A DNA stretch of 64,000 nucleotides from NCBI GenBank assembly GCA_020091685.1, contig CM034607.1:31778983-31842982 (forward strand), written 5' to 3'. The position numbers and the translations under genes were made by a program. Below, piece after piece: positions 903 through 50,610 of the stretch (the stretch's first letter is position 1; each line of letters starts with the position of its first letter). The notes below the pieces were generated by a model. That model had not been told where the DNA came from. It searched no databases and saw nothing but the letters and a program-made list of their open reading frames with translations. The stretch is from Lutjanus erythropterus. Its lineage: Eukaryota; Chordata; Actinopteri; Lutjaniformes; Lutjanidae.

Positions 903-3900
903 GTGAGATGTTCATCCCGTTCTACACTGGGAAAGTCATCGACATCATTGGCAGCCATTACCAGCCCAATGAATTCATATCTGCACTCCTCTTCATGGGC
1001 CTGTTCTCTCTGGGAAGGTGTGTTGTTGAGGTTTCCCCTCAACATTTGTCCATCAGCATGTTTTTGTTTTTTGTGCACAGGTAATATGTCACTGACTTTG
1101 TCTTTTTTTGATTTATTAATCAGCTCTGTGAGTGCAGGCTGCAGAGGGGGTCTCCTACTTTGTGCAATCAGTGCCTTCACATGCAGAGTGAAGGTCATGC
1201 TGTTTGGGGCTTTGACCAAACAGGAAATTGGATTCTTTGAGACCACAAAGACGGGTAAGCCTCTTATAATATAACTATCAGTTACGTAGTATGAATAATT
1301 TCTCAGTGAATATAAAGGAGAGAACAAGTTAAGTTAAGACTGAACAAAGACAGGACATTTCAGGACAGGATAGGAGAGGTGAGACATGATATACTGGACA
1401 AAACAGATCAGTCAGACATATCAACACAGGACAAGAGAAGATAAAAGAATATGACAGAAAAAGACTGAAGATCATTTTTAAATATTTTCTGTGCAGGTGA
1501 AATCACATCCCGATTGTCTAGAGACACCAACTTGATGGGAAGAACAGTGTGTCTGAATGTCAATGTGCTGCTGAGGACATTCATCAAGACGATGGGAATG
1601 ATCTTCCTGATGATGAACCTGTCATGGAAGCTCACATTCCTCGTACTGATGGAGACGCCCATCACTGGCCTCATTCAGAACATCCACGACACAGACTACC
1701 AGGTAAAAACAGCTTAATATGATGTTAAATTAACATTAAGATCCACACAGTTTATATGATATCCATTACCAAGAAACTGTTTAGTCACTTTAACTAATAA
1801 AGTAATCCATTTAAAATAATTTAACATACCTGTCATCATGTCTTTTAAAAGAAAAGTCTGTTTTTGTAATTCCTTCCCCAGAGGCTGTCCCTCGCAGTGC
1901 AGGACTCCATGGCTCTGGCAAATAAGGCTGCGAACGAAGCAGTGTCCGGTATTCGTGTGGTACGGAGCTTTAATGCAGAAAAGCATGAGGCCCGTCGCTA
2001 TGACGACCGCTTGATGGATACACACAGACTCAAGACCCAACGAGACACTATCAGGGCTGTTTACCTGCTCGCACGGAGGGTGAGAAGTTTGTAATTCTTT
2101 TTGTAAAACTGTTTTTCGGTAATCAGATCAGTGTCGAGCCTATCATTGCATATCACAGTGTATAATTTTGTGTCTATAGTTGACAGGGTTGGGCATGCAG
2201 GTGGTCATGTTGTACTACGGCAGGCGGTTCATCCAGAATGGACAGATGACGACTGGCAACCTGGTTTCCTTCATCCTCTACCAGTCAGATCTTGGAGACA
2301 ACATCCGGGTATCCCATAATGCACTGTGAATTGTTATCAGTCAGGGCTGATTGCAAGCTCCTGAAAGTAGTAACTTTTAATTTATTTAACAAATAGTGCA
2401 GCTGTTAGTCAAGGCAAACTACATTTCATAGACAAGGGATAAGTCAATGTCCTAAACATTCTCCTACACAAAACTAAACATGATTGCTTGCAAAAATATT
2501 AACATTCAACAAAATACAAACTGCTCTGACTGAATGAAAATGTGCTATGAAGTGATCAGTTTTTGACTGCCATCTTCCAGACACTCGCCTACATCTTCGG
2601 CGACATGCTGAACTCGGTGGGGGCTGCTGGGAAAGTGTTTGAGTACCTGGACCGAAAACCTCAGGTCAGCACGGAGGGCAAACTCAAACCAGAACAGCTG
2701 ACAGGAAATGTCACCTTCCGCCATGTCAACTTTGCCTACCCCTCATGCCTCGACAAAACAGTGCTGCAGGTGAGGTCTGTGTAGACAAGAGGGGCGTTGG
2801 CTCCAATTTGGTCAATTCATAAAGAAACTATTGAAATGAATAGTAGGAAAAAACAAGACAAATATAGAAATATACATTACAGACAGAAAATTAAATTTTA
2901 ACCAAATTCTGCCTCATAAATTAAAATTTTACAGACGTACTTTTTCATCCACCCTGACTGTCTATGTTTGTCAGATGGATAAATGTCAAATATTGCAGTT
3001 TAACTGTGTTATTACAGCCACCTTTATCTCCTTGCTTCAGGACTTTTCTTTGGAGCTGAAGTCAGGTCAGATGACGGCCCTGGTGGGTCCATCTGGACAA
3101 GGAAAAAGCACCTGTGTGAGTCTGCTGGAGCGATTCTACGATCCGCAGGATGGAGAAATCCTATTGGACAATAAACCACTGGAATCCTATGACCACCGTT
3201 TCCTCCACAAGAAGGTAATTTTTACATTACTGCTTTTACTGATGATGCACGCAATTCTTTGGCGTTATCATAGAGAATTTCTCTTTTATCTGTGATCAGA
3301 TTCTTACAAGAAGAAAAATATTGGATGAAGATAAGATTCATCCACAAATATCAATATTTCCTTCCAATTAAGTGCTAATTGTTTGGACCATCAAGAGTCA
3401 ACTAACAGGAAATTTTCTGATTTGGCAGGACGTAATTAAATAAAAATAATATCTGAGAGGATTTTACTGTATTTTCTTTTATTTTATATGTATTATATGA
3501 GTTATTCACTCAGTCAAGCTGACAAGAGTGTGTTTAACAGATTGCTGTGGTGAACCAGGAGCCTGTGCTCTTCTCTGGCTCCATCAGAGACAACATCGCC
3601 TACGGGCTGGCTGACTGCTCACTGGATGCGATCCAGGAAGCAGCACGCAAAGCCAACTGCCATGACTTCATCACGCAGTTGGAGAAAGGTTATGATACAG
3701 GTAAACTCTTTTTACCACCATTTGGTGAATGAGGGAAGACAATACTATTTGCAGAGCGAGATTGATTATGGAAAAATAATGTACTTTTTATTAATTTATC
3801 TTAACCATTTATGTAGATTCAATTTGTGCATAATAATTATACACATACACATACAGTATTTACAGTATATACTCTCGTATTTTGAGTTTTCAGATACTTT

Positions 3901-30432: not shown

Positions 30433-30436
30433 TTAA

Positions 30437-31585
30437 CCCTCTATGGTACCATGTTGCCCTCAGGCAACAAACCCATTTTTGCCCTGTCACATCTCCACAA
30501 TGCATCCCTTTAAATGATGCGATACTTTAAAAAAGAGGTAAAACCATAGGGAACCATTAACAATGCTTTAAGTTGTCACATGACCTCCAGGAAGCGATTT
30601 TGAAACCCTTCTTGGCGGGCTTTTTCTAAGGAGACAGCTCTGCTATCTTGCTGCAAAAAAAAGACTCTCAAAAAGTTATTTTTTGTCCCTTTTCCTCCTG
30701 GAAAAAAATGTCTTCACACTAATAGGTGAGTAAACTTTAAGTTTTGATAGTTTCATGCAACTTATTTACTAATTTAATAGTGGAAACTTGTTAAAATGCA
30801 GCTGTTGCCCTGAGGCAACAACGTGCCATCATGGAAAGTTGCAATGTTGCCTGCAACAGTGAACCATTATGGAATCACAATAGCAAACACAACACTGACC
30901 ACTGGCCTATTTGGGTGGAGAAAAAGGGCAGATGCAGATACCCTGGATGTAAGGGTATAGTGAAATCACAGTGCACAAAATGTGTCACCTGCCTGTGCTT
31001 CACTCCTGAAAAAAACTGCTTCATGGAGTTCCATAAGCACTGAGCAGCAACACCACAAGTGATGGCAACACATGTCAGGAAAGACACGGGGGACTGACAG
31101 AAAACATGCACTGAAATGAAGCAGTGATGATCAAACACTGGAATTTGTTGTTTTTGTTTTTCAAATGGTTATGGTAATGGTTATCTTTGTTGATTTAAGT
31201 AGTTTAAAGTTTTATACTTTACACATTTATTTCAATGGGTTGTTCCTAAATGGTACAATGTTGCCTACAGGCAACATTTAGCCAAGAAACATTTTAAATT
31301 CTTTTTAAAATTCTTTTTAATTTAAAATTTAAAATGAATTGTGACTTCTTGATGTTATTGAATATTTTTGCATATGTTTATGAAATAAACAATGTTCAAA
31401 TTGGAAAAGGAACGTCTTTTTCACTTACGCACCATTATGGTACAATGTTGCCTAACCTTGAACCCCAAAACTTCAAAAAAAATAAAAATAAAATAAAAAT
31501 AAATTTCTTCAGATTATGTTTATTTAGTCTATTTTGAGACATAAAACACATTTCCTCACTGGCATCATAATGTGTACCATAGAGG
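30437..31585 (+). mobile_element. Non-autonomous piggyBac-like unit 1 (best-preserved, 5' edge of array)
   Basis: The 5' end is CCCTCTATGGTACC after TTAA and the 3' end is GTGTACCATAGAGG. The inverted terminal match is about 12-13 bases. Palindromic words GTTGCCCTCAGGCAAC, GTTGCCCTGAGGCAAC and GTTGCCTACAGGCAAC occur at 30454, about 30805 and about 31259. The context ATGGTACMATGTTGCC occurs three times (about 30443, 31250 and 31436), once at the 5' terminus and twice in the 3' third. A 70-codon frame with a transposase-like cysteine cluster lies at 30831-31043. The catalytic DDD domain is absent, so the unit is an internally deleted element. Confidence 0.8.
30831..31043 (+). pseudogene. piggyBac transposase C-terminal cysteine-rich fragment
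   Basis: The 70-codon open frame ends in a Cys/His-rich tail: GRCRYPGC, then QCTKCVTCLC, then NCFMEFHKH and stop. The pattern of spaced CxxC pairs followed by CFxxFH is characteristic of the zinc-binding C-terminus of piggyBac transposases, which contacts the terminal repeats. Nothing of the RNase H-like catalytic core precedes it. The ATG may be fortuitous, because the frame begins just after a palindromic GTTGCC repeat. It is probably a relic; an expressed DNA-binding peptide is possible but unsupported. Confidence 0.7.
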
Positions 31586-32077
31586 ATATGACCATACATA
31601 CATACATACATATGACCATACATACATACATACATACATACATATGAGCATACATACATACATACATTATATGAGCATACATACATACATACATATGACA
31701 TACATACATACATACATACATATGAACATACATACATACATACATATGACATACATACATACATATGACCATACATACATACATACATACATACATATGA
31801 CCATACATACATACATATGACCATATACATACATTACATACATATATGGTCATACATATGACCATGCATACATATTATACATACATACATACATACATAT
31901 GAGCATACATACATACATACATACACATATGACCATGCATACATACATACCATATGACTATACATACATACATACATATGACCATATATACATACATACA
32001 TATGACCATACATACACATACATACATACATACATATATATGACCATATACATACATACATATATACATATATATAT
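31586..32077. repeat. TACA satellite block 1
   Basis: TACA runs are punctuated by TATGACC and TATGAGC. A TATGGTCATACATATGACC inverted motif lies near 31846. The block ends in an ATATATATA tract that leads into the next element copy. Confidence 0.9.
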
Positions 32078-32361
32078 AAATTCTTTTTATAATTCTTTTT
32101 AATTTAAAATTTAAAATATGTGACTATGATGTTATTGAATATTTTTGCATATGTTTGAAATAAACAATGTTCAAATTGGAAAAGGAACATTCATTTCACT
32201 TATGCACCATTATGGTACAATGTTGCTACAGGCAACGAACCCAAAACTTCAAAAATAAAAATAAAAATAAAAATAAAATTTCTTCAGATTATGTTTATTT
32301 AGTCTATTTTGAACATAAAAACACATTTCCCCACTGGCATCATAATGTGTACCATACAGGG
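32078..32361 (+). mobile_element. piggyBac-like unit 2, 3' part only
   Basis: It starts at the ATATATAAATTC junction and carries the ATGTTATTGAATATTTTTGC segment, the ATGGTACAATGTTGC motif, an AAAATA-rich run and the 3' end ACCATACAGG, whose terminal repeat has an A-to-C change. Confidence 0.8.
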
Positions 32362-32430
32362 ATATGACCATACATACATACATACATACATACATACATA
32401 CTTATGACCATACATGCATACATATGACCA

Positions 32431-32461
<31 letters not shown>

Positions 32462-32861
32462 GACCATACATACATATGACCATGCATACATTCATATGAC
32501 CATACATACATACACACATACATACATACATGGTCATACATATGACCATGCATACATACATACATACATACATACATATGAACCATACATACATACACCA
32601 TACATATGACCATGCATACATACATACATACATGTGATATACATGCATACATACATACATACATGACCATACATACATACATACATGTGACCATTACATA
32701 CATACATATACATACATATGAGCATACATACATATGAGCATATATACATACATACATATGACCATACATACATACATACATACATACATATGAGAATACA
32801 TACATACATATGATATTACCATACATATGACCATACATACATACATATGACCATACATACA

Positions 32862-32897
<36 letters not shown>

Positions 32898-32936
32898 TGA
32901 CCATACATACATACATACATATATACATATATATAT
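32362..32936. repeat. TACA satellite block 2
   Basis: It contains the marker CATTCATATGACC near 32487, followed by an ATGGTCATACATATGACCAT inverted motif near 32531. This pair recurs a few hundred bases after several other element copies. Confidence 0.9.
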
Positions 32937-33221
32937 AAATTCTTTTATAATTCTTTTAAATTTAAAATTTAAAATGAATTGTGACTTCTTGATGTTATTG
33001 AATATTTTTGCATATGTTTATGAAATAAACAATGTTCAAATTGGAAAAGGCGTTCTTTTCACTTATGCACCATTATGGTACAATGTTGCCTACAGGCAAC
33101 GAACAAAACTTCCAAAATAAAAATAAAAATAGAAATTTCTTCAGATTATGTTTATTTAGTCTATTTTGAGACATAAAAACACATTTCCCTCACTGGCATC
33201 ATAATATGTGTACCATAGAGG
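32937..33221 (+). mobile_element. piggyBac-like unit 3, 3' part only
   Basis: It has the same ATATATAAATTC left junction as unit 2. It keeps GTTGCCTACAGGCAAC and ends GTACCATAGAGGG, one G longer than some copies, matching the three C's of the array's 5' terminus. Confidence 0.8.
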
Positions 33222-33241
33222 GATATGACCATATACATACA

Positions 33242-33272
<31 letters not shown>

Positions 33273-33369
33273 GTACATACATACATACACATACATACAT
33301 ACATACATATACATACATATGAGCATACATACATACATGCATATGACCATACATGCATACATACATACA

Positions 33370-33400
<31 letters not shown>

Positions 33401-33595
33401 GAGCATACATACATACATACATATGACATACATACATACATATGAGCATACATACATACATACATACATATGAGACATACATACTATGACATACATACAT
33501 ATGAGCATACATACATACATACATACATACATATGACATACATACATATGACATACACATACATACATATGACCATACATACATACATACATACA

Positions 33596-33626
<31 letters not shown>

Positions 33627-33807
33627 GACCATACACATACATATGCATACATACATACATACATACATACATATGACCATACATACATATGACCATGCAT
33701 ACATTCATATGACCATACATACATATACACATACATACATACATATAGTCATACATATGACCATACATACATACATACATACATACATATGAGCATACAT
33801 GCATACA

Positions 33808-33838
<31 letters not shown>

Positions 33839-33945
33839 GACCATGCACATACATACATACATGTGACCATACATACATACATACATACATATGAGCATAC
33901 ATACATATGAGCATATATACATACATACATATGACCATACATACA

Positions 33946-33976
<31 letters not shown>

Positions 33977-34081
33977 GAGAATACATACATACATATGACA
34001 TACATACATACATATGACCATACATACATACATATGACCATACATACATACATATGACCATACATACATACATATATTTAT
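33222..34081. repeat. TACA satellite block 3
   Basis: Several long uninterrupted TACA runs occur (for example 33357-33398 and 33567-33622). The CATTCATATGACC marker is near 33691 and the GTCATACATATGACC motif near 33749. Confidence 0.9.
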
Positions 34082-34364
34082 AAATTCTTATAATTCTTTT
34101 TAATTTAAATTTAAATGAATTGTGATTTCTTGATGTTATTGAATATTTTTGCATATGTTTATGAAATAAACAATGTTCAAATTGGAAAAACGTTCTTTTT
34201 TCACTTATGCACCATTATGGTACAATGTTGCTGGCATGAACCTAAAACTTCAAAAATAATAATAAATATAAAAATAAAATTTCTTCAGATTATGTTTATT
34301 TAGTCTATTTTGAGACATAAAAACACATTTCCCTCACTGGCATCATAATGTGTACCATAGAGGG
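34082..34364 (+). mobile_element. piggyBac-like unit 4, 3' part only
   Basis: The GTTGCCTACAGGCAAC palindrome is damaged (reads GTTGCTGGCATGAAC). The 3' terminus GTACCATAGAGGG is intact. Confidence 0.8.
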
Positions 34365-34413
34365 ATATGACCATACATACATACATACATACATACATAC
34401 ATACATACATACA

Positions 34414-34444
<31 letters not shown>

Positions 34445-34771
34445 GACCATACATACATACATACATATGAGCATACATACACATACATACATACATATGA
34501 GCATACATACATATATATATACACATACATACATACATACATACATATGACCATACATACATACATACATACATACATATGACCATACATACATATGACC
34601 ATACATACATACATATGAGCATATATATACATACATACATACATACATACATACATACATACATACTTATGACCATATGCATATATGACCATACATACAT
34701 ACATACATACCACATACATATACATACATATGACCATACATACATATATTATGCATACATTCATATGACCA

Positions 34772-34802
<31 letters not shown>

Positions 34803-34999
34803 GGTCATACATATGACCATGCATACATACATACATACATACATACATATGAGCATACATGCATACATACATACATACATATGACCATACATACATATGA
34901 GCATATATACATACATACATACATACATATGACCATGCATACATACATATGAGCATACATACATACATGAACATACATACATACATACATACATGACCA

Positions 35000-35030
<31 letters not shown>

Positions 35031-35032
35031 GA

Positions 35033-35064
<32 letters not shown>

Positions 35065-35081
35065 CATACATACATATATAT
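34365..35081. repeat. TACA satellite block 4
   Basis: It opens with about 70 bases of uninterrupted TACA (about 34373-34441). A GCATACATTCATATGACC marker lies near 34743 and a TATGGTCATACATATGACC motif near 34800. Confidence 0.9.
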
Positions 35082-35365
35082 AAATTATTTTTATAATTCT
35101 TTTAATTTAAAATTCAAAATGAATTGTGACTTCTTGATGTTATTGAATATTTTTTATATGTTTATGAAATAAACAATGTTCAAATTGGAAAAGGAACATT
35201 CTTTTTCACTAATGCACCATTATGGTACAATTTTGCCTACAACAACGAACCCCAAAACTTCCAAAAATAAAAATAAAAATAAAAATTCTTCAGATTATGT
35301 TTATTTAGTCTATTTTGAGACATAAAAACACATTTCCTCTGGCATCATAATGTGTACCATAGAGG
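35082..35365 (+). mobile_element. piggyBac-like unit 5, 3' part only
   Basis: The palindrome is again degraded (TTTTGCCTACAACAACG). The end GTGTACCATAGAGG runs into ATATGACC of the next block. Confidence 0.8.
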
Positions 35366-35374
35366 ATATGACCA

Positions 35375-35405
<31 letters not shown>

Positions 35406-35520
35406 GACCATACATACATACATACACATACATACATACATACATATACATACATACATACATACATATGACCATACATACATACATACATATGACCATA
35501 CATACATACACATACATACA

Positions 35521-35551
<31 letters not shown>

Positions 35552-35649
35552 GAGCATACATACATACATACATATGAGCATAAATACATACATACATACA
35601 TATGAGCATACATACATTATACATATGAGCATACATACATATGTACATA
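35366..35649. repeat. TACA satellite block 5 (interrupted by foreign insert)
   Basis: A short block that stops abruptly at about 35650 where unrelated sequence begins. The same satellite resumes after 36216. Confidence 0.85.
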
Positions 35650-36216
35650 CATAGCTGGCAATGAAGTTCAATCAGAGAAGACCTTGTATTACGCTGCCTT
35701 CATTCTAACTTTCCTTTACTCCGCCTCTCCTCCTATTCCCTCTAATCAGCTGTTTGTGGGCGTTCACCTTCGTCTTTACCATCCATTTAGATTTTGCCAC
35801 GGTCGCGATAGCCAGTCAATTTGCTGCTGCCAAATCTTTAAATCGCCTCTGTCTTTGCTCCATCAGTTGTCATTCAGTCAATCGCGCGACCCTCTCCACC
35901 CTCTCCTCCAGTCACTGGACCCAGGTAGCAGAAGATGTTCACCTCGATCCTCCTGACGCCTCTCCTCCAGCCTTCAGGTCCAGGCAGCAGGAGTCCAGAG
36001 CCACTTCACCTCACCAGTCTCTGCTTTGCACCTCATCATCACCACCACCAGTGTCTAGACCCGGGAGTTCTCTTCACTACAGCTTCATCACCCCTATTTA
36101 TATATACATATGTTTCACCTCATTGGGGTCTAACCGCCTAAGACTGTTCATGTTTCATATATCATGCATGTGCCAATAAACCATTTCTCTTTTACTCTTA
36201 GTCTCCTGATTGAAAT
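35650..36216 (+). mobile_element. Unrelated insert in the satellite, solo-LTR-like or retroposon-like
   Basis: About 565 bases of mixed composition, with C-rich stretches and several CpGs, sit between two satellite blocks. The right part has CCAATAAACCATTTCTC about 45 bases before the satellite resumes, a polyA-signal position typical of an LTR R region or a retroposon 3' end. I could not define terminal TG..CA ends with a matching target duplication. The open frame 35754-36179 (141 codons) has no motif I recognise. The class is undetermined. Confidence 0.5.
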
Positions 36217-36460
36217 GACATACATACATATGAGCATACATTCATACATATGGCCAAACATATGACCATGCATACAAACATACATGACAATACATACATA
36301 CATACATACATACATACATACTTATGATCATACATGCATACATATGACCATACATACATATGACCATGCATACATTATATATCATACATACATATACACA
36401 TACATACATACATATGGTCATACATATGATACATACATACATACATACATATGACATACA

Positions 36461-36491
<31 letters not shown>

Positions 36492-36678
36492 GAGCATACA
36501 TACATATGAGCATATATACATACATACATATGAGCATACATACATACATACATACATATGAGAATACATACATACATATGACCATGCATACATACATATG
36601 AGCATACATATACATATGACCATGCATACATACATATGACCATACATACATACATATGACCATACATACATACATACA

Positions 36679-36709
<31 letters not shown>

Positions 36710-36714
36710 GACCA

Positions 36715-36745
<31 letters not shown>

Positions 36746-37317
36746 GACCATACATACATACATACATACATACATGTGACCATGCATACATACATACATA
36801 TGAGCATACATACATACATACATATACATATGAGCATACATACATACATATATACATACATATGAGCATACATACATACATACATACATATGACCATGCA
36901 TACATACATACATATGACCATACATACATACATACATACATACATACATACATACATACATACATACATACTTATGACATACATACATACATATGACATA
37001 CATACATACATACATACATATGACCATACATACATATGACCATGCACATACATACATATGATATACATACATACACATACATACATACATATGGTCATAC
37101 ATGACCATGCATACATACATACATATGAGCATACATACATACATACATGTGACCATACATACATATACACATACATACATACATATGGTCATACATATGA
37201 CCATGCATACATACATACATACATACATATGACCATACATGTATACATGACCATACATACATACATACATACATATGACCATACATACATATGACCATAC
37301 ATACATACATATGACCA

Positions 37318-37348
<31 letters not shown>

Positions 37349-37421
37349 GGTCATACATATATGACCATGCACATACATACATACATATGACCATGCATAC
37401 ATACATACATACATGTGACCA

Positions 37422-37452
<31 letters not shown>

Positions 37453-37714
37453 GAGCATACATACATATGAGCATATATACATTACATACATATGACCATA
37501 CATACATACATACAGCATACATACATATATACATATATGAGAATACATACATACATATGACCATGCATACATACATATGAGCATGCATACATATATGACC
37601 ATACATACATACATATGACCATACATACATACATACATATACATATGACCATACATACATACATATATATATATATGACCATATATATACATACATACAT
37701 ACATACATATATAT
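36217..37714. repeat. TACA satellite block 6
   Basis: About 1.5 kb. It contains four or more GTCATACAT(AT)GACCATGC inverted motifs (near 36417, 37094, 37188 and 37350) and ends in an ATATATA tract. Confidence 0.9.
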
Positions 37715-37999
37715 AAATTCTTTTATAATTCTTTTAATTTAAAATTTAAAATGAATTGTGACTTCTTGATGTTATTGAATATTTTGCATATGTTTATGAA
37801 ATAAACAATGTTCAAATTGGAAAAGGAACGTTCTTTTCACTTATGCACCATTATGGTACAATGTTGCCTACAGGCAACGAACCCCAAAAACTTCCAAAAA
37901 TAAAAATAAAAATAAAATTTCTTCAGATTATGTTTATTTAGTCTATTTTGAGACATAAAACACATTTCCTCACTGGCATCATAATGTGTACCATAGAGG
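37715..37999 (+). mobile_element. piggyBac-like unit 6, 3' part only
   Basis: A well-preserved copy with GTTGCCTACAGGCAAC intact and the end GTACCATAGAGG. Confidence 0.8.
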
Positions 38000-38012
38000 A
38001 TATGACCATACA

Positions 38013-38043
<31 letters not shown>

Positions 38044-38139
38044 GACCATACATACATACATACACATACATACATACATACATACATATGACATACATAC
38101 ATACATACATACATATGAGCATACATATACATATATACA

Positions 38140-38170
<31 letters not shown>

Positions 38171-38174
38171 GACA

Positions 38175-38205
<31 letters not shown>

Positions 38206-38275
38206 GACATACATACATACATACATACATACATATGAGCATACATACATATGACCATACATACATACATATGAC

Positions 38276-38307
<32 letters not shown>

Positions 38308-38380
38308 CATACATACATATGACCATGCATACATACATACATACATACATACATATGACCATGCATACATATGACATACA

Positions 38381-38411
<31 letters not shown>

Positions 38412-38477
38412 GACACATACATACATACATACATACATACATATGACCATACATACATACATACATATGAGCATACA

Positions 38478-38511
<34 letters not shown>

Positions 38512-38567
38512 CATACATACATACATATGAGCATACATACATATGACCATACATACATACATATGAC

Positions 38568-38599
<32 letters not shown>

Positions 38600-38676
38600 C
38601 ATACATACATATGACCATGCATACATACATACATACATACATATGAGCATACATACATACATATGATATGCATACA

Positions 38677-38707
<31 letters not shown>

Positions 38708-39057
38708 GAGCATACATACATACATGACCATACATACATACACATACATTTTATATGTGATACATACATAACATACATACATACATACATACATATGACC
38801 ATGCATACATACATACATATGAGCATACATATACATACATATAGCCATGTATACATACATACATATGAAATACATACATACATATAAATATGTGCACATA
38901 TGACCATACATACATACATACATATGAGCATACATACATAAATGACATACATATACATATGACCATACATACATATGAGCATACATATGACCATACATAT
39001 TATGAGCATACATACATATGACCATATACATACATACATATGACATGCAACCATACA

Positions 39058-39088
<31 letters not shown>

Positions 39089-39203
39089 GACCATACATAT
39101 GACCATGCATACATACATATGAACATACATACATACATACATATGACCATACATACATACATACATACATACATACATGACCATACATACATATGACCAT
39201 ATG

Positions 39204-39237
<34 letters not shown>

Positions 39238-39460
39238 CTTATGACCATATATACATATATGACCATACATACATACATACATACATATGACCATACATAC
39301 ATATGACCATACATACATATGACCATGCATACATACATACATATGAACATACATACATACATACATATGACCATACATACATACATACATACCACATATG
39401 ACCATACATACATATGTATACATACATATATATGCATACATACATACATACATATGATAT
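38000..39460. repeat. TACA satellite block 7 with an internal ~296-bp duplication
   Basis: The order GAGC, then GACC, then GACC, a TATATACA step and GACCATGC is seen starting near 38231 and again near 38527. This implies a tandem duplication of about 296 bases inside the block. The block ends CATATGATATCTCTCTATGG where the next full unit begins. Confidence 0.85.
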
Positions 39461-40554
39461 CTCTCTATGGTATGTTGCCCTCAGGCACTAAACCCATTTT
39501 TACCCTGTCGCATCTACAATGCATCCATTAAATGATGCATACTTTAAATACATAAACCATATGGAACCATTAACAATGCTTTAATTTGTCACATGACATC
39601 CATAAGCATTTTGAAACCCTTCTTGGCGGGCATTTCTAAGAGACAGCTCACTATCTTGCTGCATAAAGACTCTCAAAAGTTATTTCTTGTCCCTTTTACA
39701 CCTGGAAAATGTCTTCACACTAATAGGTGAGTAAACTTTGTTTGATAGTTTCATACAACTTATTTACTAATTTATGGAAACTTATTAAATGCAGCTGTTG
39801 CCCTGAGGCAACAACGTGCCCATCATGAAAGTTACAATGTTGCCTGCAACAGTGAACCATTATGGAATCACTATAGCAAACACAACACTGACCACTGGCC
39901 TATTTGGGTGAGAAAAAGAACATATGCATACATGGATGTGTAAGAGGTATAGTGAAATCACATACACAAAATGTGTCACCTACCTGTGCTTACTCCTGAA
40001 AAAACTACATCATGAGTTCCATAAGCATGAGCATACACCACAAGTATGGCAACACATGTCATGAAATACATAGGACTACACATACATGCACTGAAATGAA
40101 GCATGATGATCAACACTGAATTTGTTGTTTTGTTTTTCAAATGGTATGGTAATGTTACATATGTTGATTTAAGTAGTTAAATTTTATACATTACACATAT
40201 ATTTCAATGGGTTCATAAATACATATTAATGTTGCCTACATACATACATATATACAGCTTTTTAAATTCTTTTTTAAATTCTTTTAATTTAAAATTTAAA
40301 ATGAATGTGACTTCTTGATGTTATTGAATATTTCTGCATATGTTTATGAAATAAACAATGTTCAAATTGGAAGAACATTCTTTTTTCATATGCACCATTA
40401 TGGTACAATGTTGCCTACAGGCAACGAACCCCAAACTTCCAAAAATAAAAATAAAAATAAAATACAAATAAAATTTCTTCAGATTATGTTTATTTAGTCT
40501 ATTTTGAGACATAAAACACATTTCCTCACTGGCATCATAATGTGTACCATGAGG
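39461..40554 (+). mobile_element. piggyBac-like unit 7, full length but patchily altered
   Basis: It carries a 5' end CTCTCTATGG, with the following palindrome reduced to GCCCTCAGGCAC, and a 3' end TACCATGAGG. Patches such as ACATATGCATACATGGATG and CTACATACATACATATATAC replace the sequence seen in unit 1. The cysteine-rich coding relic is frame-broken here. Confidence 0.75.
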
Positions 40555-41050
40555 ATATGACCATACATACATACATACATACATACATACATACATACAT
40601 ACATACTGTATACATACATACATATGAGCATACACATATACATACATACATATGAGCATACATACATACATACATACATGAGCATACATACATACATACA
40701 TATGAGCATACATACATATGAGCATACATACATACATACATACATATATGACATACATACATATGACATACATACATATGAGCATACATACATACATACA
40801 TACATACATATGACCATACATACATACATACACATACATACATGACCATACATACATATGACCATACATACATACATACATATGATATACATATATACAT
40901 ACATACATACATACATACATATGACCATACATACATATGACCATGCATACATTCATATAAGCATACATACATACATACATACATATGGTACATATATGAC
41001 CATGCATACATACATACATACATACATATGAACATACATGCATACATACA

Positions 41051-41081
<31 letters not shown>

Positions 41082-41108
41082 GAACATACATACATACATA
41101 TGACCATG

Positions 41109-41139
<31 letters not shown>

Positions 41140-41148
41140 GACCATACA

Positions 41149-41179
<31 letters not shown>

Positions 41180-41787
41180 GACCATACATACATATACATA
41201 CATATGAGCATACATACATACATATGACCATGCATACATACATACATATGAGAATACATATACATACATACATACTATGGCCATACATATGACCATGCAT
41301 ACATACATACATATGAGCATACATACCATGACCATACATACATACATATGACCATACATACATATGAACATACACATGACCATACATATTTATGACATAC
41401 ATACATACTGTATAACTACATATACATATGACCATACAACCATATACATACATATGTTTTTGTATCATGTACATACATATGTTGCATATGATTTTGCATT
41501 ATATTGCATACTATTATGTATATATACATACATACATACATACATACATACCATATATATATGACCATATACATACATATGACCATACATACATACATAC
41601 ATACATATGACCATACACATATGACCATACATACATATGACCATACATACATACATACATTGAACATGCATACATACATATATAGACCATACATACATAC
41701 ATACATACATACATATGACCATACATACATATGATTATACATATACATATAATACATACTATACATACATACATATGAGCATATCAT
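40555..41787. repeat. TACA satellite block 8
   Basis: It contains TATGGTACATATATGACC and TATGGCCATACATATGACC inverted motifs near 40985 and 41277. A less regular AT-rich stretch at about 41400-41530 may be a decayed fragment. Confidence 0.85.
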
Positions 41788-42863
41788 CTCTGTATGGTAC
41801 ATATTACATCATACATACATACCCATATACCTGTACATCTACACAATGCATACATTTTTAAATGATACATACATTAAATATATAATACATATGAACCATA
41901 CATACATACTATTATATGTTGTCATACATATGAAACATACATATGGGCATTTCTAAGGATACAGCTCTACATATCATACATACATAAATACTATACATAA
42001 ATTATTTATTGTCCACTTTTCCACATACATAAAAATGTCTTCACACTAATATGACTATACATTGTTTTGATAGTTTCATACATACTTATTTACTAATTTA
42101 ATATGAAACATACATATGCATACTGTTCATACATATGACATACATACATGATTATATACATATATACATGAACCATTATGGAATCACTATATACATACAT
42201 AACAATGACCATAATATATGGGTGGATATAATAATACATGCATATACATGCATGTAAAGGGTATGAGTGAAATACATACATTACTAATATTGTCATACAC
42301 ATTGTGCATACACTACTGAAAATGTATACATGGGTATATGAGCATACATGATACATATACCACAAGTGATGCATACATGTCATAAAGACATATGCATACA
42401 TATACATATGATGAGCATGATAATACATACATACATATGACTTTTGTTTTTTTCATGGTTCATATAATACATATCATTGTTGATTTAAGTACATATAAGT
42501 TTTATACATACATATTTATTTCAATGGGTTGACATATGGTACAATATTGTATACATACATACATATAGTAAACATACAAATTCTTTTTTAAATTCTTTTA
42601 ATTTAAATTTAAATAATTGTGACTTCTTGATGTTATTGATATTTTGTATGTTTATGAAATAACAATGTTCAAATTGAAAAGGAGCATACTTTTTCACTTA
42701 CATACATTATGGTACAATGTTGCATACATACATATGAAGACCCCAAAACTTCCAAAAATAAAAATAAAAATAAAAATAAATACATTCTTCAGATTATGTT
42801 TATTTAGTCTATTTTGAGACATAAAAACACATTTCCTCACTGGCATCATAATGTATATAGAGG
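41788..42863 (+). mobile_element. piggyBac-like unit 8, full length, heavily overwritten by satellite motif
   Basis: The overall order of unit 1 is still recognisable (CACAATGCAT, GGGCATTTCTAAGGA, ATGTCTTCACACTAATA, GAACCATTATGGAATCAC, then the 3' third). Many G- or C-rich segments are replaced by CATACATA-type sequence. The first palindrome is gone. The 3' end is TATATAGAGG. Confidence 0.7.
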
Positions 42864-43160
42864 ATATGACCATACATACATACATACATACATACATACA
42901 TACATGTAATGTACATACATACACATACATACATACATACATACATATGAGCATACATACATACATATTGTATATGACATACATACATACATACATACAT
43001 ATGAGCATACATACATACATACATATGAGCATACATACATATGAGCATACATACATACATATGATACACATATGAGCATACATACATATGAGCATACATA
43101 CATACATATGGCCATACATATGACCATGCACATACATACATACATACATATGACCATACA

Positions 43161-43191
<31 letters not shown>

Positions 43192-43452
43192 GACCATACA
43201 TACATATGACCATGCATACATACATACATATGACCATACATATATACATACATACATACACATACATACATATGACCATACATACATATGACCATGCATA
43301 CATACATATAAACATACATACATACACACATACATACATATATGGTCATACATATGACCATGCATACATACATACATACATACATACATATGAACATACA
43401 TGCATACATACATACATACATATGACCATGCATACATACATACATGTGACCA

Positions 43453-43483
<31 letters not shown>

Positions 43484-43680
43484 GAACATATATACATACA
43501 TACATATGACCATACACATACATACATACATACATACATACACATATATGAGAATACATACATACATGTCCATACATACATACATATGACCATACATACA
43601 TACATATGACCATACATACATACATATGACCATACATACATACATATGACCATACATACATACATACATACATATGACCA

Positions 43681-43714
<34 letters not shown>

Positions 43715-43770
43715 CATACATACATACATATGAGCATACATACATATGACCATGCATACATACATATGAC

Positions 43771-43802
<32 letters not shown>

Positions 43803-43974
43803 CATACATACATATGACCATACATACATATACATACATACATATGAGCATACATACATACATATGACCATACATACATATACATATGCCATACATACAT
43901 ACATTATATGAGCATACATACATACATATGACCATGCATACATACATACATACATACATACATGTGACCATACA

Positions 43975-44005
<31 letters not shown>

Positions 44006-44756
44006 GACCATACATACATACATACATATGAGCATACATACATACATATGTGTGTATACATACATACATATGAGAATACATACATACATACATACATATG
44101 GCCATACATATGACCATGCATACATACATACATGAGCATACATACATACATACGACCATGCATACATATGACCATACATACATATGACATACATACATGA
44201 CCATACATATTATGACATACATACATATGATACATACATACATACATACATATGACCATGCAACCATACATACATACATACATACATATACATACATACA
44301 TACATACCATACATATGACATACATACATACATATGAACATACATACATACATACATATGACCATACATACATACATACATACATACATACATGACCATA
44401 CATACATATGACCATACATACATACATACATACATACATACATACATACATACATACACATATATATACTTATGACCATATATACATACACATATGACCA
44501 TACATACATACATACATACATATGACCATACATACATATGACCATACATACATATGACCATGCATACATACATATATGAACATACATACATACATACTTA
44601 TGACCATACATACATACATACATACATACATATGACCATACATACATATGAGTATACATACATATATATGCCATACATATGACCATGCATACATACATAC
44701 ATATGATTATACATACATACATATGGCCATACATACATACATACATATGAGCATAT
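42864..44756. repeat. TACA satellite block 9 (longest)
   Basis: About 1.9 kb. A regular higher-order stretch of a 20-mer, CATATGACCATACATACATA, repeated about four to five times, is seen at about 43580-43680. ATGGTCATACATATGACC or ATGGCCATACATATGACC motifs lie near 43098, 43345 and 44099. Confidence 0.9.
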
Positions 44757-45880
44757 CTCTCTATGGTACCATGTTGCCCTCAGGCAACAAACCCATTTAC
44801 AACCTGTCACATCTCCATAATGCATCCATTAAATGATGCTGATACTTTATGAACATAAAACCATAGGGAACCATTAACAATGCTTTAATTTGTCACATGA
44901 CCTCCAGGAAGCATTTGAAACCATTCTTGGCGGGCTTTTTCTATGGAACAGCTCTGCTATCTTGCTGCAAAAAAGACTCTCAAAAAGTTATTTCTTGTCC
45001 ATTTTCCACCTGGAAAAAATGTCTTCACACACTAATAGGTGAGTAAACTTTGTTTTGATAGTTTCATGCAACTTATTTACTAATTTAATAGTGAAACTTA
45101 TTAAAAAATGCAGCTGTTGCCCTGAGGCAACAACATACATCATGGAAAGATTGCAATGTTGCCTGCAACAGTGAACATATGGAATCACTATGTAAACACA
45201 ACACTGACCACTGGCATATTTGGGTGAAAAAGGGCATGCAGATACCTGGATGTACAGGTATGAGTGAAATCACAGTGCACAAATGTGTCACCTGCCTGTG
45301 CTTCACTCCTGAAAAAACTGCTTCATGGAGTTCCGCAAGCATGAGCATACAACACCACAAGTGATGGCAACACATGTCAGAAAAGACATGGACTGACACA
45401 AAACATACACTGAAATGAAGCAGTGATGATCAAACACTGGAATTTGTTGTTTTTGTTTTTCAAATGGTTATGGTAATGGTTATCTTTGTTGATTTAAGTA
45501 GTTTAAAGTTTTATACATTTACACATTTATTTCAATGGGTTGTTCCTAAATAGTACAATGTTGCCTACAGGCAACATTTAATAAAACTTTTAAATTCTTT
45601 TTAAATTCTTTTTAATTTAAAATTTAAAATGAATGTGACTTCTTGATGTTATTGAATATTTTTGCATATGTTTATGAAATAAACAATGTTCAAATGGAAG
45701 GAACGTTCTTTTCATATGCACCATTATGGTACAATGTTGCCTACAGACAACGAACCCCAAAACTTCAAAAATAAAAATAAAAATAAAATAAAAATAAAAT
45801 TTCTTCAGATTATGTTTATTTAGTCTATTTTGAACATACAAACACATTTCCTCACTGGCATCATGATGTGTACATAGAGG
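44757..45880 (+). mobile_element. piggyBac-like unit 9, full length
   Basis: It is close to unit 1, with GTTGCCCTCAGGCAAC after the 5' end and GTTGCCTACAGGCAAC in the 3' third. The cysteine-rich relic (about 45179-45364) keeps HKCVTCLCFTPEK but is frame-broken on both sides. The 3' end reads TACATAGAGG, with CC lost from the usual ACCATAGAGG. Confidence 0.8.
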
Positions 45881-45911
45881 ATATGACCATACATACATAC
45901 ATACACATACA

Positions 45912-45942
<31 letters not shown>

Positions 45943-45984
45943 GACATACATACATACATACATACATATGAGCATACACATAGA

Positions 45985-46015
<31 letters not shown>

Positions 46016-46461
46016 GAGCATACATACATATGAGCATACATACATACATACATACATACATATGAGCATACATACATGAGCATACATACATATGAACATA
46101 CATACATACATACATACATATATATGACCATACATACATACATACATACACATACATACATATGACCATACATACATATGACCATGCATACATACATACA
46201 TATGACCATACATATATACATATACATACATACATACATATGACCATACATACATGACCATGCATACATTCATATAAACATACATACATACACACATACA
46301 TACATATATGGTCATACATATGACCATACATACATACCAACACATACATACATATGAACATACATACATACATACATACATACATACATACATACATGAG
46401 CATACATACATACATATGATGCACATACATACATACATACATACATACATATGACCATACA

Positions 46462-46492
<31 letters not shown>

Positions 46493-46760
46493 GACCATGC
46501 ATACATACATACATATGAGCATACATACATACATATGTATGTATACATACATACATGAGAATACATACATACATACATACATATGTACCCATATGACCAT
46601 GCATACATACATACATATGAGCATACACATACATACATACGACCATACATACATACATATGACCATACATACATATGAGCATACATATGATATACATATT
46701 TATGAACATACATACATATGAGCATACATACATACATACATATGACCATGCATACATACA

Positions 46761-46791
<31 letters not shown>

Positions 46792-46932
46792 GTCATACAT
46801 TATGACCATGCATACATACATATGGTTATACATACATACTACATACTTATGACCATACATACATACATACATACATACATACATGATATACATACATATG
46901 ACCATACATACATACATACATACATACATACA

Positions 46933-46966
<34 letters not shown>

Positions 46967-47244
46967 CTTATGACCATATATACATACATATATGACCATA
47001 CATACATACATACATACATATGACCATACATACATATGACCATACATACATATGACCATGCATACATACATACATATGAACATGCATACATACATACTTA
47101 TGACCATACATACATACACATACATACATATGACCATACATGAGTATACATACATATATATGGCCATATGACCATCATACATACATACATATGAGTATAC
47201 ATACATACATATGTCATACATACATACATACATATGAGCATATC
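45881..47244. repeat. TACA satellite block 10
   Basis: It contains the CATTCATATAAAC marker near 46265 and the ATGGTCATACATATGACC motif near 46310. It ends GAGCATATCTCTCTATGG into unit 10. Confidence 0.9.
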
Positions 47245-48364
47245 TCTCTATGGTACCATGTTGCCCTCAGGCAACAAACCCATTTGCCCTGTCGCATCTC
47301 CACAATGCATCCCTTTAAATGATGTGATTCTTTAAAGAGGTAAAACCATAGGGAACCATTAACAATGCTTTAATTTGTCACACATGACCTCAGAGGCAAA
47401 CCCTTCTTGGCGGGCTTTTTCTAAGAGACAGCTCTGCTATCTTGCTGCAAAAAGACTCTCAAAAAGTTATTTCTTGTCCCTTTTCCACCTGGAAAAAAAT
47501 GTCTTCACACTAATAGGTGAGTAAACTTTGTTTTGATAGTTTCATGCAACTTATTACTAATTTAATAGTGGAAACATGTTAAAATGCAGCTGTTGCCCTG
47601 AGGCAACAAATGCCCATCATGAAAGTTGCAATGTTGCCTGCAACAGTGAACCATTATGGAATCACTATAGCAAACACAACACTGACCACTGGCCTATTTG
47701 GGTGGAGAAAAAGGGCGATGCAGATACCTGGATACAAGGGTATAGTGAAATCACAGTGCACAAAATGTGTCACCTGCCTGTGCTTCACTCCTGAAAAAAA
47801 CTGCTTCATGGAGTTCCATAAGCACTGAGCAGCAACACCACAAGTGATGGCAACACATGTCAGGAAATACATGGGGACTGACACAAAACATGCACTGAAA
47901 TGAAGCAGTGATGATCAAACATACAGAATTTGTTGTTTTTGTTTTTCAAATGGTTATGGTAATGGTTATCTTTGTTGATTTAAGTAGTTTAAAGTTTTAT
48001 ACTTTACACATTTATTTCAATGGGTTGTTCCTAAATAGTACAATGTTGCCTACAGGCAACATTTTAATAAACATTTAAATTCTTTTAAATTCTTTTTAAT
48101 TTAAAATTTAAAATGGTGACTTCTTGATGTTATGAATATTTTGCATATGTTTATGAAATAAACAATGTTCAAATTGAAAAGGCTTGTTCTTTTCACTCAC
48201 GCACCATTATGGTACAATGTTGCCTACAGTAACGAACTAAAACTTCAAAAATAAAAATAAAAATAAAAATAAAAATAAAATTTCTTCAGATTATGTTTAT
48301 TTAGTCTATTTTTGAGACATATAAAACATTTTCCTCACTGGCATCATAATGTGTACCATGAGGA
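47245..48364 (+). mobile_element. piggyBac-like unit 10, full length
   Basis: The palindrome and 5' end are intact. The cysteine-rich relic is readable in one frame from about 47610 to 47828. The 3' end is TACCATGAGG. Confidence 0.8.
47610..47828 (+). pseudogene. piggyBac transposase C-terminal fragment, second readable copy
   Basis: This copy ends with the same QCTKCVTCLC and NCFMEFHKH tail as 30831-31043, but it has lost the first cysteine pair (MQIPGYKG replaces CRYPGCKG). The first half is read in a shifted frame compared with unit 1, through small indels. Confidence 0.6.
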
Positions 48365-48376
48365 TATGACCATACA

Positions 48377-48407
<31 letters not shown>

Positions 48408-48626
48408 GACCATACATACATACATACATACATATGAGTATACATACATACATACATATGAGCATACATACATACATACATACATGAGCATACATACATA
48501 CATACATATGAGCATACATACATATGAGCATACATACATACATACATACATACATATGAGCATACATACATATGAGCATACATACATATGAGCATACATA
48601 CATACATACGTACATACATATGACCA

Positions 48627-48657
<31 letters not shown>

Positions 48658-48978
48658 GACCATACATACATATGACCATGCATACATACATACATATGAG
48701 CATACATATATACATACATGCCATACATACATACATATGACCATACATACATATGACCATGCATACATTCATATAAACATACATACATACACACATACAT
48801 ACATACATATGGTCATACATATGACCATGCATTTATACATACATACATACATATGAACATACATGCATACATACATATACATATGACCATGCATACATAC
48901 ATACATGTGACCATACATACATACATACATACATACATATGAGCATATATACATACATACATATATTAAGCACATACA

Positions 48979-49010
<32 letters not shown>

Positions 49011-49181
49011 CATATGAGAATACATACATACATATGACCATACATACATACATATGACCATGCATACATACATATGACCATACATACATACATATATGAT
49101 ACATACATACATATGACCATACATACATACATACATACATATGACCATACATACATACATACATATATACATATATATGAC

Positions 49182-49214
<33 letters not shown>

Positions 49215-49215
49215 T
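48365..49215. repeat. TACA satellite block 11
   Basis: Last block. It contains the CATTCATATAAAC marker near 48767 and the TATGGTCATACATATGACC motif near 48809, and ends ATATATATTTAAATTC. Confidence 0.9.
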
Positions 49216-49512
49216 TAAATTCTTTTCATAATTCTTTTTAATTTAAAATTTAAAATGAATTGTGACTTCTTGATGTTATTGAATATTTTTGCATATGTTT
49301 ATGAAATAAACAATGTTCAAATTGGAAAGAGCGTTCTTTTCACTTATGCACCATTATGGTACAATGTTGCCTACAGGCAGACTTCCCCAAAACTTCCAAA
49401 AATAAAAATAAAAATAAAATTTCTTCAGATTATGTTTATTTAGTCTATTTTGAGACATAAAAACACTCCAAACATTTTTCCCCCACTGGCATCATAATGT
49501 GTACCATAGAGG
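49216..49512 (+). mobile_element. piggyBac-like unit 11, 3' part, right edge of array
   Basis: It carries the 3' third and ends GTGTACCATAGAGG directly against TTAA (49513-49516). A short insertion, CTCCAAACA, sits between the AAAAACA and TTTTTCC words. Confidence 0.85.
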
Positions 49513-50610
49513 TTAAGGATACTTGTATCTCACTCTTATGTTTGTAATTTTTCTCTGAAAAGAGGGGTTGTTTACTTTTCATACTGTTAATTTCTGTTAG
49601 AGAGAAAGAAAATATTTCCTCTGTTGTTTGTAATTTAGAATGAAAAACACACCTGATCCTTCCTGTAATCCTACACCGCTCGTCCTAACCTTCCCCCTCC
49701 TCATTTTGCTACCTGTCTGCCGTCATACCTGCATGACAGGTGGGAAGTCACAAGATGAGGCAGATGACTACTGGAACAACAGAAAAAAAACAACCTGCCA
49801 GCAGCTTATTTCTGATCTGTTGCCACATAAAATGTTGACATCATGTATTATTTTAAACCTGAAGGTATGATACTGGTATTTTTAATTGGACAATCTCTCT
49901 TACTCATTTAAACTTTTTAAATTGATTTAGTAATATTCCTGACATATGAATATATATGACTGGATGTTGTATTACACTTGTTAATATAAATTAAGAGCTC
50001 TGAGTGCATGTACATGTAAATATACTGTATTTACATATTTTTATATCATTATACTATTAAAGTTTTAGTGGAAGGTGAAAGCATGTTCATCATATTTTCA
50101 CTTCAAATCAGAAGTCTATCTGTCATTAATGCAAGTGCTCACTTTCATAAATCATCTTGCATGATAAAACTGTGACAATCAGATGAGGCAAATTCAGAAG
50201 TTACTAAGCAACAGGATCAGTTCTTGGCAATGACAATGAAACTCAGTTGAAACACTGAGTTCTCTCCTGTGCTGCAGAAAAATACAACAATCCAGCCACT
50301 GGGGTTTTGTTGACAGCTACACTGCTGACAAATTTCTGCTTCCATTTATGTTGTAAATAAATGGACTGAGTTTTTCCCACTCTTTGCTTTTAAATTGTAG
50401 ACTTACATATGAGAGGTACAAATGACAAACCTTTAAGTTAACTTTAGTCATGAAGGAGTAGAAAAGAAATAAATCCAAACCTGTGAGAAAAGAATTAACA
50501 TTAGATTTGCATTTGCAAGATTAGATTTGCAATTGATTTGTTGTTGTTGTTGTTTTAATTATAACCACCTAAGAAACAACAACAAAACTCACATGCACCA
50601 GGATATTTAA

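Follow-up and report, generated by a model that had tools for sequence, protein, structure and literature searches.

Tandem repeats carried by small non-autonomous transposons have precedents. Satellite-bearing miniature inverted-repeat transposable elements (MITEs) occur in Xenopus (PMC9659126, PMC12628747), and arrays of piggyBac-type coral MITEs, together with large piggyBac tandem arrays, are mentioned in PMC2872659. Here, we describe a 19-kb block (30433..49516) within a 64,000-nucleotide stretch of the Lutjanus erythropterus genome (contig CM034607.1; the whole stretch analysed, hereafter the window) that consists of copies of a piggyBac-like element and a CATA satellite. The block is, in our assessment, probably a single inserted copy of a non-autonomous composite of the piggyBac superfamily that carries a macrosatellite, was built once and was then dispersed. 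Among the matches listed by searches of the openly licensed PMC literature, none was a macrosatellite-bearing piggyBac element of fish.

The Xenopus Xmix/Xstir MITE (Hikosaka and Kawahara 2004; via PMC2872659 and PMC12628747), counted as piggyBac-type in PMC2872659, likewise bears tandem repeats, and its MITE, array and composite forms coexist. Unlike Xmix/Xstir, the Lutjanus block has intact TTAA ends, between which a microsatellite alternates over many kb with 3' ends and full copies of the element itself. Xenopus miDNA4 (Scalvenzi and Pollet; via PMC12628747) is also a MITE and has inside it a satellite whose copy number varies, but it is of the Tc1/mariner type and its satellite is described as captured, with units not made from the element's end. 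The coral CMITE shares the piggyBac type, the TTAA, the CC[C/T]T ends and the tandem arrays. However, its arrays are of whole MITEs and are thought to arise by slippage, and the accessible part of PMC2872659 describes no mobile satellite-bearing composite. In the Tetris foldback transposon (PMC4079207), internal tandem repeats of a non-autonomous DNA transposon also seed satellite arrays, but Tetris is a Drosophila foldback element whose repeats derive from its terminal inverted repeats (TIRs) and whose arrays are heterochromatic. Teratorn is, similarly, a very large piggyBac-superfamily element of teleosts, with herpesvirus genes as cargo instead of a satellite.

Structure of the block and its piggyBac-type ends

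The left edge of the block reads ...ACTACTTAA joined to CCCTCTATGGTACC, with TTAA at 30433-30436 directly before CCCTCTATGGTACC. The right edge reads GTGTACCATAGAGG joined to TTAAGG, i.e., GTACCATAGAGG and then TTAA at 49513-49516. The original prediction from the sequence had described these outer TTAA and inverted piggyBac-like ends, about 19 kb apart, as enclosing eleven element copies plus satellite, with no flanking TTAA at the internal copies examined, and all of this is borne out. Five copies are full or degenerate-full (starting at 30437, 39463, ~41786, 44759 and 47246) and six are 3'-only units of ~290 bp each (starting at 32077, 32936, 34078, 35081, 37714 and 49214), and none of the internal TIR junctions has a flanking TTAA. 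On their 3' side these junctions read CCATAGAGG(G) followed by ATATGACCATACATAC, also given as CCATAGAGG(G) followed by ATATGACC; on their 5' side they read ATAT followed by CTCTCTATGG, mostly with GAGC in front. A TTAA within the start of the last 3' unit belongs to the element itself. That unit's start had prompted the idea of a nested origin, with one copy jumping into another, which is unsupported. Satellite, in segments delimited by hand, accounts for 11.1 of the 19.1 kb and is (CATA)n interrupted by CATATGACC/CATATGAGC. The features are, by window coordinates and strand:

30433..30436, unstranded, left TTAA target duplication
30437..31585, + strand, full copy F1, with 5' TIR CCCTCTATGGTACC and a 3' end of the deletion type
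30795-31043, inside F1, 82-aa cysteine-rich frame
31586..32076, + strand, first satellite segment, (CATA)n with CATATGACC/GAGC
32077..32361, + strand, 3'-only unit u1
32936..33222, + strand, 3'-only unit u2
34078..34364, + strand, 3'-only unit u3
35081..35365, + strand, 3'-only unit u4, haplotype AAATTA + TTCAAAAT + CTAATGC
35654..36218, unstranded, unrelated ~570-bp insertion in the satellite
37714..37999, + strand, 3'-only unit u5
39463..40554, + strand, internal full copy F2, without TTAA, 5' junction ATAT followed by CTCTCTATGG, letters partly satellite-like
41786..42863, + strand, internal full copy F3, degenerate, satellite 6-mers over 49.5% of the body
44759..45880, + strand, internal full copy F4
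47246..48363, + strand, internal full copy F5
49214..49512, + strand, terminal 3' unit T, retains the TCCAAACA segment, right end of the mobile element
49513..49516, unstranded, right TTAA target duplication

Elements of this family end in CCCTCTATGGTACC...GTACCATAGAGGG and are flanked by the TTAA target duplication of the piggyBac superfamily, which is altered on one side at three loci (L026, L037 and L052). Piggybac-type MITEs are recognized by TIRs of 12-19 bp that start with CC[C/T]T (PMC2872659, in part). The TIR of the window element, CCTCTATGGTAC, is 12 bp long, has such a start and is inverted at both ends; it extends to 13 bp with CCCT in copies whose right end is GAGGG. At the right end of the block GA is followed by two G, one fewer than in intact relatives (GAGGG followed by TTAA). 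A palindrome, GTTGCCCTCAGGCAAC, lies at bp 17-32 of the left end. In T. ni piggyBac, PMC7351741 places a left-end palindromic repeat at bp 17-33, where it is bound by the cysteine-rich domain. The Lutjanus palindrome resembles that repeat in position. Taken as sequence characters, the TTAA duplications, the CCCT ends and the left-end palindrome are consistent with piggyBac. According to the same source, piggyBac excision needs no TTAA (PMC7351741), so the internal ends are not protected by the absence of TTAA alone, and the idea that the missing TTAA shields them was dropped.

The ~570-bp piece within the satellite (~35654-36218), unrelated to its surroundings, has AATAAA near its right side and a short inverted TTCAATCAG/CTGATTGAA near its ends; it is perhaps a separate transposable element insertion.

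Satellite-bearing and solo copies across the genome

The 937-Mb host genome was searched with the first 568 bases of the element. Forty of 162 first-look candidates were scored, all 98-100% identical to the query, and the window copy and the other 39 were read. Copies with and without satellite both exist: 14 of the 39 are solos of 1.1-1.2 kb without satellite, 17 carry the same satellite (18 of 40 with the window locus) and eight run into N. At these eight loci (L012, L014, L020, L022, L025, L045, L051 and L054) the N gaps start inside the element's 3' part, which suggests unassembled satellite. No mutual match was found among 39 left flanks (~140-900 bp each, window included), so the copies are separate insertions and not segmental duplicates.

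Genome-wide, exact left ends with TTAA occur 54 times and exact right ends with TTAA 49 times, each against 0 in the reversed-pattern control, and chance is therefore excluded. When ends were paired with their nearest same-strand partner up to 60 kb away, with one left end on C9 added by hand, 37 elements resulted, and 18 left and 12 right ends stayed without a partner. Seventeen elements are short (0.43-1.35 kb) and 20 are long (2.1-35 kb, median 16.6 kb), lengths being assembly distances with N included. The window locus is outside these pairs because its right end is one G short of the pattern. In 17 of the 20 long pairs the sequence read contained satellite, on one side or on both. One of the 17, C23:23522815-23549431 (L072), is doubtful because reverse-oriented satellite lies beside its exact TTAA right end; the C23 array is rearranged or inverted. 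At L062 (C15:5663785-5664255), two overlapping copies of one 3' end are joined by a single N, probably a gap-closing artefact.

Satellite-bearing copies have more in common than the repeat itself. The exact satellite-joined 3' junction GTACCATAGAGGGATATGACCATACATAC has 27 occurrences at 19-20 places, and the junction from satellite to terminal 3' unit, around ACATATATATTTAAATTCTTTTCATAAT, is found again at other loci in slightly different versions. Satellite-flanked 3' ends are missing ~10 bp around TCCAAACA, a segment that in an intact end is located 39-48 bp from the tip: by string test the segment is absent in 35 of 36 distinct satellite-flanked ends, and it is absent in all 13 aligned first copies, nine of which are identical. 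All 37 outer right ends that were read (14 solos; L010, L017, L023, L033 and the window; L018 and L026; and 16 fetched for this purpose) retain a segment of the TCCAAACA type with 7-10 of 10 bases, letters sometimes being changed. The alignment of first copies and terminal units omits L021, L023, L038, L048 and L055 as first copies and L018 as terminal unit, and its L015 row is empty, a locus readable in other comparisons. L010, which lies on another chromosome, has a single internal unit, and this unit has the haplotype of u4 (AAATTA, TTCAAAAT, CTAATGC), so different unit types predate these insertions. The 5' junction of internal full copies, GAGCATAT followed by CTCTC, is also present in L024. 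These common junctions, the deletion and the unit variants imply that the array travelled with, or was copied between, elements and was not born at this locus. The family has what characterizes satellite-bearing MITEs, namely dispersed copies with the same tandem repeat in variable number, and its array is not confined to one locus in the way of an in situ macrosatellite. Satellite collinearity between loci carries no information, since array positions that are unrelated align almost equally well.

In body sequence the solo and long copies do not form separate groups, and this mixing suggests repeated collapse. On the body tree the solo label changes 13 times (shuffled mean 12.1) and the long label 12 times (14.1), and some well supported forks contain both forms. 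Below alignment column 870, 26 substitutions are common to 2-12 edge copies out of 40, and 20 of the 26 are found in both forms. In the 13 of 14 solos that are readable, the left part of the 3' repeat is of the first-copy type and the right part of the terminal-unit type, as would be expected if the first 3' repeat of a long copy had recombined with the last, and also of an ancestral solo. A tree of 3' units (44 rows, one stretch present twice) has no clear grouping by locus and is weak because of interior consensus errors.

Origin of the array and rival explanations

The composite follows a single plan. It starts with the 5' end and the 1.15-kb body, continues with a 3' end bearing the ~10-bp subterminal deletion and then CATA satellite, adds more 3'-end units (in some copies also full-copy units), each with satellite, and closes with an undeleted 3' end, TTAA being joined only to the first left and the last right end. 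This plan probably formed once, after which piggyBac transposase supplied in trans would have inserted copies at TTAA sites across the genome. Slippage or unequal exchange would have altered the length of the arrays. Some copies would repeatedly have been reduced to 1.16-kb solos when their first and last 3' repeats recombined, much as LTR (long terminal repeat) elements leave solo LTRs, if the change ran from long to short. The subterminal deletion may disable the internal right ends and so keep the array in one piece.

The original prediction went further for the window itself and proposed that a 1.1-kb insertion acquired or seeded a microsatellite here and grew in place into a macrosatellite. 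Part of that proposal stands, in that a single TTAA-flanked insertion of piggyBac type does form the outer edges and the element plus CATA satellite make up the array; growth from 1.1 kb at this site does not. The presence of TTAA at the outer ends only, with internal TIRs devoid of it, is what in-place growth would leave. Birth at this locus is nevertheless contradicted by the 17 of 39 other copies that carry the satellite at unrelated sites with common junctions, deletion and unit variants, and by flanks that mark the other long copies as something other than duplicates of the window locus, which makes in-place growth highly unlikely. Judged from sequence, the satellite-bearing composite predates its insertion here; a change in array size at the locus after insertion is possible. 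CATA microsatellites are common in fish, and separate expansion of a CATA array beside the element at each locus might be imagined on that ground. Independent births that converged on the same junctions, one common subterminal deletion and common unit haplotypes are extremely improbable.

Spread of the array by ectopic gene conversion or recombination into solos that had inserted first, without transposition of the array itself, would also yield the observed mixing of solo and long copies by body sequence. It would require many events, each importing kilobases of array yet sparing the outer ends and TTAA, and collapse of long copies is simpler; we regard such a spread as unlikely. It is very unlikely that the array is largely an assembly construct, but its interior does call for caution. 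Relative to the majority sequence, 40 edge copies have means of ~5.5 substitutions, 0.6 deletion and 0.4 insertion events per ~770 bp, compared with 14-88 substitutions, 15-53 deletion and 3-42 insertion events over the same length in five interior full copies (four in the window, one in L024), a spectrum expected of consensus errors within an array. The body of the copy at ~41786 consists to 49.5% of satellite 6-mers, versus 2.1% in each of 15 edge copies measured, and this likeness is probably a consensus artefact. In copies 41786-42863 and 39463-40554, CATA-like letters replace G-rich words, as if satellite reads had entered the consensus. N is reached in eight of the 39 sister copies and in four of 16 right ends. 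Because of such consensus errors, unit-level divergence and exact array length are treated as unreliable. On the other side, junction types recur, and at many loci the ends lie in flanks that are unique and differ from one another, which limits the doubt to interior letters and exact lengths.

Several observations weigh against a composite that was built once and dispersed by transposition. The 82-aa cysteine-rich frame, which may be a remnant of the C-terminal cysteine-rich domain of piggyBac, found no confirmation in Pfam (no match at E up to 1) or the PDB (no match), and a 49-aa part of it gave one weak Tc5 match, below cut-off. The satellite-free nested junction had no exact occurrence in the genome and five at two mismatches, versus 19 in the reversed control. 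One satellite-flanked end, the L018 unit at 3169, retains the segment that the others lack. A recount from the alignment was noisier than string matching, with 0-7 of 10 bases in most of the satellite-flanked ends, 9 of 10 in the L018 unit and 10 of 10 in one C3 unit, the latter by eye without TCCAAAC. Three long pairs (C2:36222999, C21:15055805 and C14:24877485, the 35-kb pair) have only N or an unread left side. The body tree is weak, with four of 40 inner branches well supported and the bootstrap unsettled. From column 883 onward, where some copies end prematurely, ten further columns were not counted with the 26 for that reason; none of the ten is mixed between solo and satellite-bearing copies. 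Finally, satellite conversion between older copies would mix both forms as well.

Neighbouring genes and implications

Reading frames that flank the block have Pfam matches to a bromodomain, a fibrillar collagen C-domain and, weakly and below the curated cut-off, a short-chain dehydrogenase. These are consistent with brd2-hsd17b8-col11a2, and by synteny the locus would lie in the major histocompatibility complex (MHC) class I region.

It is tempting to go beyond the window and propose, tentatively and as a possibility that we consider rather doubtful, a mobile macrosatellite: internal right ends silenced by the deletion would let arrays of tens of kb move as one block, most units with a palindrome like those that bind transposase, so that hypervariable arrays would be sown genome-wide, including between brd2 and hsd17b8, and solos left where arrays collapse. 

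With solos, short arrays, long arrays and exact ends, this young many-copy natural series makes the birth, transport and collapse of a satellite traceable on a cut-and-paste transposon. The dispersal of the family also implies a common source for many large arrays of this genome that are badly assembled and probably length-polymorphic.

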